Part shown: piece after piece, positions 5,085-19,646 of the stretch
How the letters are laid out: every line of letters begins with the position of its first letter
Position numbering within the stretch: position 1 is the stretch's first letter
NCBI RefSeq assembly: GCF_947492365.1
Contig: NZ_CANLMB010000002.1
Span: 1 to 64,000, forward strand
From: an uncultured Erythrobacter sp.
Lineage (GTDB): Bacteria > Pseudomonadota > Alphaproteobacteria > Sphingomonadales > Sphingomonadaceae
Reading direction: 5' to 3'
Length of the DNA: 64,000 nt
Made by a program: the position numbers and the translations under genes
The notes under the pieces: generated by a model
Database searches by the model: none
Told to the model about the DNA's origin: nothing
The model's input: only the letters and a program-made list of their open reading frames with translations

Positions 5085-5158
5085 GCGGGTATAGCATAGT
5101 GGTAATGCTCCAGCCTTCCAAGCTGGCTAGAGGGGTTCGATTCCCCTTACCCGCTCCA
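5085..5158 (+). tRNA. tRNA-Gly(TCC)
   Basis: A complete 74-nt cloverleaf with encoded CCA. The acceptor arms GCGGGTA/TACCCGC pair perfectly, the D arm is GCAT/ATGC, the anticodon arm CCAGC/GCTGG encloses the loop CTTCCAA (anticodon TCC at 5117-5119), and the T arm AGGGG/CCCCT encloses TTCGATT. The discriminator is T. Its last 18 bases form the left attachment site of the adjoining island. Confidence 0.97.
5141..5158 (+). repeat. attL: 3' end of tRNA-Gly
   Basis: The 18 bases from the T loop to the CCA end of tRNA-Gly. They are repeated in the same orientation at 19630-19646 with a single C deleted in the acceptor stem. P4-type integrases commonly use tRNA 3' ends as attB. Because the integrase lies beside this copy, the tRNA end now in use was probably supplied by the island. 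Confidence 0.8.
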
Positions 5159-5272
5159 GCCCTGCCTTCCCAAAACATCCCAGAAACGCTATAAAACCCT
5201 TGGAAACCTTACGGTTTCTGGTGTTCGGTTTTCCTGCATCAGCCCGCTTAGTCTCGCTAAATCTCGCTGATT

Positions 5273-5337
5273 TGGGGGCCACATTGGGGGCCACACAGGT
5301 TTCCGCCAATTCGAGTGGCCCCCAATCTGGGGGCCAC
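5273..5337. repeat. Cluster of four TGGGGGCCA repeats between attL and the integrase
   Basis: Copies sit at 5273-5282, 5283-5294, 5315-5326 (inverted) and 5328-5337, each with the core TGGGGGCCAC or its complement. Two related copies lie just inside the right end (19551-19570). The position between att site and integrase start suits integrase arm-type or excisionase binding sites that also control the integrase promoter. This role is inferred. Confidence 0.75.
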
Positions 5338-5360
5338 GTATTGGGTAAGGGTCTGAAATT

Positions 5361-6590
5361 ATGGCACTAACAGATGTTGCAGTTCGCAAGGCTAGGCCGA
5401 AGGCGAAAGCCTACAAAATGGGCGATTCGTTAGGGCTCTTTCTTTTGGTTCAGCCAAGTGGCGGCAGATTGTGGCGGCTGAAGTACCGCATTGATGGGCG
5501 CGAGAAGAAGCTGGGGCTCGGGACCTACCCGGAAATTGGGCTCGCAGAGGCCCGCAGTAGGCGCGATGCGGCGCGAGAGCAGCTGGCGCAGGGCAAGGAC
5601 CCATCTCGCGAAAAACAGCGTGAGAAGGCACGTAAGAAGCTCGGTGCGGAGAATACCTTTGCGTCCATCGCCGCTGAGTTCTGTGAGAAGCGCAAACATG
5701 ATGGCTCACGAGCTTGGGCACCAGCCACGGCGAAGCGCTGCGAATACCTACTATCGGTCCTCAACAGCTCGATAGGCAATCTGCCGATTGCTGATATCGA
5801 GCCTGCCGACATCCTCATAGCCGTTCGCCGGATCGAGAGTAAGGGCAAGCTGGAAAGCGCGAAGCGAACCTTGCAGCTGGCAGGTTCGGTCTTCCGCTAC
5901 GCGGTCGCTACAGCGCGCCTCAAGTCCGATCCGACACGCGACTTGAGAGGCGCGCTGATGAACCCGACCGTGACTCATTATGGAGCGGTGCTTGATCCAA
6001 CAGGTGCCGGTGAGCTGCTCAGGGCTATCGATGGCTATGAAGGCCAACCTATCACCAAGCTGGCGATGCAGCTTGCTCCGCATGTGTTCGTAAGGCCGGG
6101 CGAGCTCCGCCATGCCGAGTGGAGCGAAATCGACTTCGATAAGGCTCTGTGGACGATCCCGGCGAGTAAGACGAAGATGCGTAAGGATCACCTTGTCCCG
6201 CTGTCACGCCAAGCCCTTGCGATTCTGGAAGAGGCCTACCGATTGACAGGCCCCGACGGCTATGTGTTTCCGTCAGTCCGAACCCGCAGGCGACCAATGA
6301 GCGACAACACCATCAACGCTGGATTGCGCCGCTTGGGCTACACTACCGACGAAATGACCGCCCACGGCTTCCGCGCGATGGCGTCCACCTTGCTGAACGA
6401 AAGCGGCAAGTGGAACCCCGACGCAATCGAGCGCGCACTGGCGCATGGCGACAGCGACAAGGTCCGCGCCGCCTACCATCGTGGAGCGCACTGGAAAGAA
6501 CGGGTGAAAATGATGAAATGGTGGAGCGACTACCTCGATCAGCTCCGCGAAGGCGCGCAAGTGGTGCCGATCAAGACAGCGAAAGGCTGA
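5361..6590 (+). CDS. P4-type tyrosine integrase (DUF4102 family)
   Basis: Site-specific recombinase of 409 aa. The N-terminal DUF4102 arm-binding domain (about 1-90) contains GDSLGLFLLVQPSGG and KLGLGTYPEIGLAEAR. A SAM-like core-binding domain follows (about 105-195), then the catalytic domain with Arg in VRPGELRHAEW, Lys in SKTKMRKDH, HGFR, HGDSD in the place of the second His box, and the tyrosine in AAYHRG. It starts 202 bp after tRNA-Gly, as usual for tRNA-targeting islands. It appears full length, so integration and excision activity are plausible. Confidence 0.95.
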   Translation: MALTDVAVRKARPKAKAYKMGDSLGLFLLVQPSGGRLWRLKYRIDGREKKLGLGTYPEIGLAEARSRRDAAREQLAQGKDPSREKQREKARKKLGAENTFASIAAEFCEKRKHDGSRAWAPATAKRCEYLLSVLNSSIGNLPIADIEPADILIAVRRIESKGKLESAKRTLQLAGSVFRYAVATARLKSDPTRDLRGALMNPTVTHYGAVLDPTGAGELLRAIDGYEGQPITKLAMQLAPHVFVRPGELRHAEWSEIDFDKALWTIPASKTKMRKDHLVPLSRQALAILEEAYRLTGPDGYVFPSVRTRRRPMSDNTINAGLRRLGYTTDEMTAHGFRAMASTLLNESGKWNPDAIERALAHGDSDKVRAAYHRGAHWKERVKMMKWWSDYLDQLREGAQVVPIKTAKG

Positions 6591-7172
6591 CGGATCGCGC
6601 CAAAAATTGCAACTCTTCTACGACCCGTAAGAACAAGGAGAAATATCCCGTGATTACCGATGGTTATCGCATAGTGAGTGGTCTGCGGTTCGGCGCAAAC
6701 CCGCTCAACTCGCAGGTGGGTTGATTCCGCCCAAACACTATTTCAAAGCAAAACCAATGACTTATCTCCCGAAATCGCGGGGTAGGGTGTGCTCCTGTTT
6801 CCAGCGGCACCGTAGGTCCAGTGTTGCTAGACGCAAGATGCTTGGATCTCAATGCGATCCTGCAGGCTGAACCTCAGCCCAGCTGGCGTTGGAGGCTGAT
6901 ACTGGGCCGTTAGCGGAAGGTCCGGTCCCGGCGATCTGAACTTAGAAAGCCGACATTGCACCTGCGACCCAATTGCGGCCACGCGGAAATATTTCTCAAT
7001 TCGGATGCTTTATTGGAACCTCAATGACACCATCATTCGATTGAATATGTGCTCTGCTGAAAAGACGAGGCGTTTACGGAGCCTCAGCGGCAATCGTCCG
7101 AACTAAATTGCTGATTTCAAGTTGCTAGAATTTCGGCGTCGTTGTCGCCGGACTTGGTTGAGACTCCTCGAC
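6591..7172. other. Non-coding island segment between integrase and chemoreceptor
   Basis: A 582-bp stretch with no credible gene. It holds one arm of a 55-bp inverted repeat (6681-6735) and a small GAGGC/GCCTC hairpin near 7071-7089 upstream of the chemoreceptor stop. Nothing else was recognised. Confidence 0.6.
6681..6735 (-). repeat. Left arm of 55-bp inverted repeat inside the island
   Basis: The reverse complement of 6681-6735 matches 19263-19317 at 49 of 55 positions by hand alignment, without gaps. It includes the uninterrupted block GAGTTGAGCGGGTTTGCGC. One copy lies 91 bp downstream of the left integrase and the other about 270 bp upstream of the right recombinase start. It is not coding in either place. 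Confidence 0.85.
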
Positions 7173-18995: not shown

Positions 18996-19262
18996 CTTCA
19001 TTCTTCTTGGCCGGAATGGCCGCAAAGAATGTCCGCTTTCGGCAACTAAGACTTGGCATCGCTATGTCTGAAACTGGGGCGCAAAGCGGTCATTTGCTGC
19101 GCTCAATCGCCGCGCGGCTGTTTCACGGCAGGTGCCGTCCGCAGTGGCTGAGCCGAGAAATCCGCGAACAATTGGTAAACCGCGCGCGGATGGAAATCTG
19201 GCGAGCACACCGTACCCCGCGAATTCGGGATGTAAGCTTATGATAATTAATGAAAAAAATGT

Positions 19263-19317
19263 TTTGGGCGGAAACAACCCGTCTACGAGTTGAGCGGGTT
19301 TGCGCTGAGCCGCAGAC
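19263..19317 (+). repeat. Right arm of 55-bp inverted repeat inside the island
   Basis: It matches the reverse complement of 6681-6735 at 49 of 55 bases. The pair is inverted and encloses all the cargo genes plus the second recombinase, while the left integrase lies outside it. Confidence 0.85.
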
Positions 19318-19550
19318 AACTCAAAGTCCCATAAACACATGAAACTGAATGATAAATTTCGGCTAACGCGCGAGTTGTTTGCGATCCGCGGGATTTCTAA
19401 TCCTATTGTGCCGTAAGGCCGCGCTCCACTCACATACGAGTTGCCCATCGGAGCGGTGACAATCCGCAGTTTGCAGGCTAACTACGAAGGCCTGAAAAGG
19501 ACGCAACCGTCCCTCTCAATCCCGGGTTTTTCCACAGAAGCGCAGGCATG

Positions 19551-19570
19551 TGGGGGCCAGATTGGGGGCC
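19551..19570 (+). repeat. Two GGGGGCC repeats near attR
   Basis: TGGGGGCCA at 19551-19559 and ATTGGGGGCC at 19561-19570 match the cluster near attL (5273-5337). This supports the reading as recombinase or excisionase arm sites of one element. Confidence 0.7.
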
Positions 19571-19629
19571 TTTTATTTCTCGAGCTTTGAAAAACAAAAT
19601 AGGTTCAATTGCTTGTTCGGCCTATTGGC

Positions 19630-19646
19630 TTCCCCTTACCGCTCCA
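19630..19646 (+). repeat. attR: imperfect copy of the tRNA-Gly 3' end
   Basis: 17 bases equal to 5141-5158 except for one missing C within the acceptor-stem run. It has the same orientation as attL and marks the right end of the island, 64 bp before cysD. Confidence 0.78.

Follow-up and report, generated by a model that had tools for sequence, protein, structure and literature searches.

The DNA analysed here, a 64,000-nt stretch hereafter called the window, is the start of the second of three contigs (NZ_CANLMB010000002.1) in the 3.16-Mb genome of an uncultured Erythrobacter sp. (GCF_947492365.1), and it contains a 14.5-kb genomic island inserted at a tRNA-Gly gene. The insertion target, tRNA-Gly (tcc), was located with ARAGORN at 5085–5158 on the plus strand. 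Its final 18 nt (attL, 5141–5158, plus strand) recur in direct orientation as 17 nt with one C fewer (attR, 19630–19646, plus strand), in agreement with a preliminary description of this DNA, which had placed a repeat of the tRNA 3' end 14.5 kb away. That description had also put a P4-type integrase inside one end and a second recombinase inside the other, and both genes lie where it located them. The integrase gene (5361–6590, plus strand) encodes Arm-DNA-bind_3, Phage_int_M and Phage_integrase domains, all three over the Pfam cut-offs. The 10-mer TTGGGGGCCA has ten copies in the window (both strands, at most one mismatch): four arm-type repeats of the 10-mer and its inverse at 5272–5336, two at 19550–19571, two inside the island (8380 and 14358) and two elsewhere.

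Taken as a bare repeat attL/attR is weak, and it is regarded as more than chance because the island is absent from relatives. The preliminary description had named an empty site between tRNA-Gly and cysD, together with a compositional difference, as checks on the island, and both were found. The upstream DUF475 protein was searched in 114 genomes of the genus and matched in 111. A tRNA-Gly gene stands beside the DUF475 gene in 14 of 29 relative loci, with no tRNA there in the other 15, and in 13 of the 14 cysD follows 64–174 nt past the tRNA, as compared to 14.5 kb in the window. At the 14th tRNA-bearing locus (L015) no cysD was found over the 4.7 kb to the contig end. The GC content of the island is 0.549 and that of its flanks 0.607 and 0.609, and throughout the right flank 14.5-kb segments taken at a 100-nt step gave 0.603–0.619. 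GC at third codon positions is likewise lower, 0.44–0.69 in 12 island genes vs. 0.74–0.77 in three flank genes. Thus, a P4-type integrase island inserted at tRNA-Gly is well supported.

The cargo holds the genes that had been listed for it (chemoreceptor, TetR, CYP153, ferredoxin, thioesterases, MarR, hydrolase and RND pump), as confirmed by sequence comparison with Pfam, NCBIfam and PDB entries. Behind the integrase come a methyl-accepting chemotaxis protein (7173–8561) and a TetR regulator (8687–9328), both on the minus strand, followed on the plus strand by a CYP153A7-like P450 (9509–10774), a [2Fe-2S] ferredoxin (10785–11108) and a two-domain hotdog thioesterase, TE2 (11080–11961). A divergent MarR regulator (12121–12606, minus strand) then precedes a second row of genes on the plus strand: an alpha/beta hydrolase with a GASLG elbow (ABH, 12673–13560), a hotdog thioesterase (TE1, 13557–13970), an RND periplasmic adaptor (MFP, 13964–15076) and an RND permease (15078–18191). 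The longest open reading frame (ORF) of the permease runs from 14997, and the gene probably starts near 15078 instead. The last gene, on the minus strand, encodes a 210-aa tyrosine recombinase (18363–18995, ORF to 19025).

We found that the block from the MarR gene to the permease gene, 12047–18320 in the window, recurs as a unit elsewhere. Its genes were met again in a family-wide hydrolase search and in named genomes, and the DNA aligns at 86–92% identity to other loci (L102/L118, L103/L119, L115, L116, L117, L120 and L121–L123), of which L102 and L118, as well as L103 and L119, are the same places sampled twice and L121–L123 form one context. All these alignments have their left end at 12046–12051 and their right end at 18310–18329, or at 19083–19094 where the recombinase gene comes next; TE1 is absent from the block in L103/L119 and L120. 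We compared 1.5 kb outside each end at eight loci (the window, L102, L115, L116, L117, L119, L120 and L122). The left flanks have nothing in common, apart from their last 54 nt, which L102 shares with L116; on the right side only the recombinase unit is shared (L102, L116 and the window). Several of the loci contain tRNA genes or integrase matches. The pump operon is thus a mobile block with the same ends in unrelated contexts, and its junction with the recombinase unit in the window lies at 18301–18335.

To describe the ends of the blocks, a position weight matrix (PWM) was trained on nine left junctions of other loci, none of them from the window. The matrix matches the 64-kb window three times, in each case inside the island (22.0–24.3 bits), and the next score is 3.7. 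Two of the matches are inverted 32-nt boxes, at 6898 on the minus strand (22.3 bits) and 6945 on the plus strand (24.3 bits), with starts 47 nt apart, and they form a 79-nt paired site at 6898–6976. The third is a single box at 12035–12066 (plus strand, 22.0 bits), where the P450 operon and the pump operon meet. The best score in eight Markov copies of the window was 11.1. Across 64 loci (1.18 Mb, some overlapping) there were 79 matches of at least 14 bits, of which 11 are training sites or copies of these, vs. three in one Markov control. Ten distinct places have minus/plus boxes exactly 47 nt apart; 6898/6945 is one of them, and two others (L102 and L116) share sequence. Among seven loci outside the training set, the left-end site of the pump block is present in four (the window, L104, L105 and L190). 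A dispersed repetitive extragenic palindromic (REP)-type repeat was considered and dropped, as few copies of the motif occur in the genome (14 matches to one of its 13-mers with at most one mismatch, and four strong hits of the site model). At L178 and L186 several sites lie within a few kb, and these places are possibly cassette arrays with other cargo.

The CYP153 operon, together with the chemoreceptor and TetR genes, is bracketed by sites on both sides (extent about 6957–12046), and therefore the cargo reads as cassette 1 (CYP153 operon), cassette 2 (pump operon) and recombinase unit. Taken together, our results indicate that the island cargo consists of three blocks that meet at conserved site-like sequences, and that it was probably assembled by site-specific recombination.

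The recombinase unit is about 780 bp long and has recurring ends. Matches of its protein to Xer chains in PDB are confined to the catalytic part and no N-terminal core-binding domain was matched, so that the protein appears to be a catalytic domain only. The R-K-HxxR-H-Y active site is present: in an alignment of 25 sequences picked from the 120 relatives listed, R71, R171, H194 and Y203 are invariant and K99 and H168 nearly so, and most of the 120 have the same length of 210 aa. A copy with at least 83% identity was found in at least 17 of 298 genomes of the family, where the similar DNA spans much the same 780 bp. Within the genus, a search started from this genome's second copy (best two candidates per genome) gave alignments of at least 700 nt in at least 32 of 114 genomes, its own included. 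Recombinases of this family are abundant, with at least 8,000 candidates at E ≤ 0.001, and among 1,494 matched plasmid records 116 have a relative with at least 60% identity. Relatives of the 210-aa protein occur on Rhizobium and Sinorhizobium plasmids, several of them without an annotated gene.

The surroundings of the unit vary independently on its two sides. The start-side context could be aligned in 51 of 60 loci, among which four places are duplicates (L145/L219, L149/L198, L151/L197 and L156/L214), and after single-linkage clustering one left context, present at seven loci, was combined with four different right contexts; conversely, a single right context was met with three left ones. 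The genome studied here (G000) and G100 have 3,201 nt in common at 98.8% identity and diverge inside the site at the recombinase's end, and G110 has a 73% stretch in common that begins at the other end of the recombinase. The recombinase unit is thus itself mobile. On its start side lies a 67-nt site (19028–19094, plus strand). Inverted pairs of the box AAAGCGGACATT number 92 in 62 sequences vs. 11.7 in mononucleotide shuffles, with a length peak at 66–67 nt. Of 48 recombinase loci compared, 37 (30 unique) showed the right-end anchor and 29 (27 unique) the left-end anchor. The sequence beyond the right end retains G4, C5, G7 and C9 at 83–97% (C5, G7 and C9 in 97%), and the information is nearly nil past about +16. 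On the outer side of the left end conservation extends over about 20 nt.

A possible acceptor for the cassettes is the DNA directly behind island integrases. In the left flank of L122 there are tandem integrase genes (named by reading the translation), and L122, in the region 8186–9366, shares about 715 nt of integrase gene with G107, G094 and G062 (loci L260–L262), at 84–87% identity and up to the same site. Past this site the four loci have four different cargos: the pump block, a LysE-like exporter, a phytanoyl-CoA-dioxygenase-like gene and an RHS-like gene, the last three also named by reading translations. In the window, about 310 nt separate the P4-type integrase gene from the paired site that follows it.

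The cargo had been described as a self-contained set for sensing, terminal hydroxylation, CoA-ester processing and export of hydrophobic compounds, and this was not supported, since the pump block stands at unrelated places without a P450 and the P450 block is bracketed by sites of its own. The individual roles are predictions. The island P450 has the haem-thiolate motif FGFGIHRCVG and scores 821 bits against CYP153A7 (PDB 3rwl) over residues 7–417, with the next chain at 617, and terminal hydroxylation of alkanes is predicted on this basis; sensing by the chemoreceptor, CoA-ester processing by the thioesterases and export by the pump would be the corresponding roles of the other genes. The RND permease has a full-length ACR_tran match, the DD pair and an adaptor gene upstream, and scores below the cut-offs of all NCBIfam pump models (at best 852.4 of 1250 bits). 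The MarR protein is nearest to HpaR/SlyA models, with every score below the cut-off. The 13 island ORFs scanned include no gene for a ferredoxin reductase, an alcohol or aldehyde dehydrogenase or an outer-membrane channel.

Some P450 match is present in 113 of the 114 genus genomes, in most cases a relative about 50% identical. Copies of the island type are rare in the genus, with 87% identity in G063 and 66–67% in six others. In the family, 16 genomes have a P450 scoring at least 600 bits (among the matches listed), and in 10 of these a related hydrolase gene lies at most 15 kb from it; these CYP153 and hydrolase neighbourhoods show several gene orders. Locus L095 of G201, which belongs to another genus, has the order TetR-P450-FDX-(4.5-kb insert)-TE2-MarR-ABH-TE1-MFP-RND, where FDX is the ferredoxin. 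The insert, at 7580–12130, separates the ferredoxin from TE2. The identity between the window and G201 is 91% for the P450, 52% for MarR and 67% for the RND permease, a contrast which suggests that similar operons may have been joined more than once or that blocks have been exchanged. On the Sphingopyxis plasmid pSfKp5.2 (L132, 9936–20493), CYP153, ferredoxin, hydrolase and thioesterase genes are consecutive, with alkane 1-monooxygenase and rubredoxin genes beyond this row. Such neighbourhoods support a working link between the oxidation and the export of putative substrates. The pump block is also found without the P450. A Blastomonas plasmid bears it with recombinase fragments adjoining, and on pNL1 (L133, 9781–15715) the MarR, hydrolase and thioesterase genes are linked with an EmrAB/TolC-type pump in place of RND, near ring-hydroxylating dioxygenase genes; thus the type of transporter is exchangeable.

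These observations can be combined in the following model. The P4-type integrase would have inserted the island into tRNA-Gly, and the 210-aa recombinase, or a relative acting in trans, would recombine the 67- and 79-nt sites and thereby allow cassettes to be gained, lost and swapped beside island integrases. This would resemble what IntI and attC do in integrons, except that the parts differ and the cassettes are entire operons. Within the cargo, TetR may control the CYP153-ferredoxin pair, which, with the help of a reductase encoded elsewhere, may hydroxylate a medium-chain alkyl group. The thioesterases and the hydrolase would release free acids or alcohols, and loss of MarR repression would allow the pump to export these products, or related toxic compounds, via an outer-membrane channel of the host. 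In its widest form the model describes a new system, in which a 210-aa recombinase, itself a cassette, recombines double inverted-box sites with 47-nt spacing, and in which operons (CYP153, pumps and others) are swapped behind tRNA-island integrases across Sphingomonadales, with relatives on Rhizobiales plasmids, in an integron-like manner with no IntI, attI or attC. We put this form forward tentatively, as somewhat less probable than even.

Several results weigh against cassette shuffling by the small recombinase. For five joined insertions, no contiguous empty cassette site was found in the 114 genomes (best two candidates per genome). Three of the seven loci outside the training set (L114, L131 and L095) have no left-end site, and L095 has the combined gene order and yet no detectable site. 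The recombinase was not found within the examined stretches of L103–L105, L115, L117 and L119–L123, and because it was not found near several cassette 2 loci its role rests on association. In a 23-site model of the 67-nt site, the genome has four strong sites, three of which are at recombinase copies or a remnant, and this site may be tied to the recombinase unit and not to cassettes generally. The crossover base is not fixed, because conservation of the motif lengthens the alignments. Stop codons interrupt 6 of the 17 close family copies of the recombinase. Its AlphaFold2 model is poor (pLDDT 50.3), too poor for a structural comparison, which was dropped. Finally, alignment A1 of the sites gave only four pairs and no convincing hairpin; an attC-like folded hairpin thus has little support and was set aside, and the sites are described as boxes.

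Part of this evidence would fit a different mechanism, in which the cassettes are moved by the full-length island integrases and the small recombinase merely travels along, either at the same sites or without using any. The position of the site behind the integrase gene in L122 and L260–L262, and at a short distance behind it in the window, is what such a mechanism would produce, as is the lack of the small recombinase in the examined stretch of several cassette 2 loci. On the other hand, the recombinase unit ends in sites in dozens of genomes, and some junctions, such as that in L115, have sites although no integrase was found in the vicinity; we consider a passenger role for the recombinase unlikely. 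A further explanation is an ordinary tRNA island whose operons arrived by homologous or illegitimate recombination or with unrelated transposons, the common ends being coincidence or the outcome of selection on operon borders. The missing empty cassette site and the same gene order without sites in L095 would be expected in that case. The ends, however, agree to within a few nucleotides in unrelated contexts, and the motif stands far above the Markov controls with a fixed 47-nt geometry, which makes an ordinary island very improbable.

The two operons could form a single set under joint selection, by which hydrophobic compounds are sensed, terminally oxidised, processed as CoA esters and exported, as the recurrent proximity of CYP153 and hydrolase genes, the combined order in L095 and the neighbourhood of the alkane 1-monooxygenase gene on the Sphingopyxis plasmid may suggest; given that the pump block also occurs without a P450, and that reductase, dehydrogenase and channel genes are missing among the scanned island ORFs, we regard this as rather unlikely. 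Alternatively, the pump block could be a stand-alone detoxification cassette, acting on esters, aromatic acids or CoA-thioester overflow, which came to lie beside the P450 by chance of cassette order. Its solitary occurrence on the Blastomonas plasmid and in many chromosomal loci, the pNL1 variant near dioxygenase genes and the likeness of MarR to HpaR/SlyA models, all below cut-off, point in this direction, whereas the repeated presence of CYP153 near the hydrolase-thioesterase pair in other genera argues against pure chance, and this explanation too is doubtful.

Other features of the region touch the island less directly. Two 61-nt arms of an inverted repeat (6675–6735 and 19263–19323, 88.5% identical) flank the island cargo. 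They were considered as transposon ends and the idea was dropped, as such repeats also flank metal-RND cargo in L138 and occur as single copies in L105 and L216. L138 (C2:261000–280999 of the same genome) contains at 5944–15600 a second island, near tRNA-Arg genes and with a recombinase remnant, in which MerR, CDF, outer-membrane, adaptor and CzcA-like RND genes (named by reading translations) lie between the 61-nt repeats. Its integrase remnant is beyond the opposite 61-nt repeat as compared to the window, and a past inversion of the repeat-flanked segment would fit the two layouts. A ParA-like ATPase gene at 2173–2982 (NF041546, below cut-off), left of the island, is not obviously part of it.

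Islands, CYP153 enzymes and RND pumps are already known. The preliminary description had supposed that their combination may be undescribed. The arrangement, CYP153 with RND, thioesterase and ferredoxin genes or an Erythrobacter CYP153 island, was indeed not found among the literature titles and abstract openings listed, but it is not unique, since the order recurs in L095. Among the titles and abstract openings listed for such a system (with partial coverage of subscription journals) we found no description of an operon-sized cassette array with a catalytic-domain-only recombinase. Elements that, like the present unit, have tyrosine recombinases are reported from Gammaproteobacteria (PMC9345347, PMC10214605). 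If the proposed system is true, it would account for the way in which pathways of several genes, alkane oxidation and efflux among them, are put together and exchanged from island to island in a major group of marine and soil bacteria, with a concrete enzyme and site as the working pair. Even on the more modest reading the island is clean and well bounded, and a CYP153 operon and a pump operon are joined in it as blocks.

Compared with known CYP153 alkane hydroxylases, the island enzyme is CYP153A7-like and has a ferredoxin gene directly downstream, and differs in that neither a reductase nor a dehydrogenase gene is among the ORFs scanned in the island. The pump shares the full-length ACR_tran match, DD pair and upstream adaptor with RND pumps of the MdtB/MexB/AcrB kind; unlike these it scores below the NCBIfam cut-offs, has no outer-membrane partner among the scanned ORFs and is tied to hydrolase and thioesterase genes. 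With P4-type tRNA islands the present one has in common the integrase domains, the tRNA 3' end as target, attL/attR and repeats near both ends, whereas the one-base gap in attR and the smaller site-bounded units nested inside it are different. In integrons as well as here, modular cassettes are joined at short inverted-box sites, in the island of a sequence different from attC, and a site directly behind an integrase gene carries different cassettes in different genomes. The site box of integrons is GTTRRRY, and the boxes here are approximately AAGCNGNCAT. An integron proper was dropped as an explanation on account of this difference and because no integron integrase match over cut-off was found in the genome (G000). 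The small recombinase reaches 23.6 of 265 bits against the integron integrase model, is without the N-terminal domain and is itself a mobile unit, and the cassettes that meet at its sites are multi-gene.

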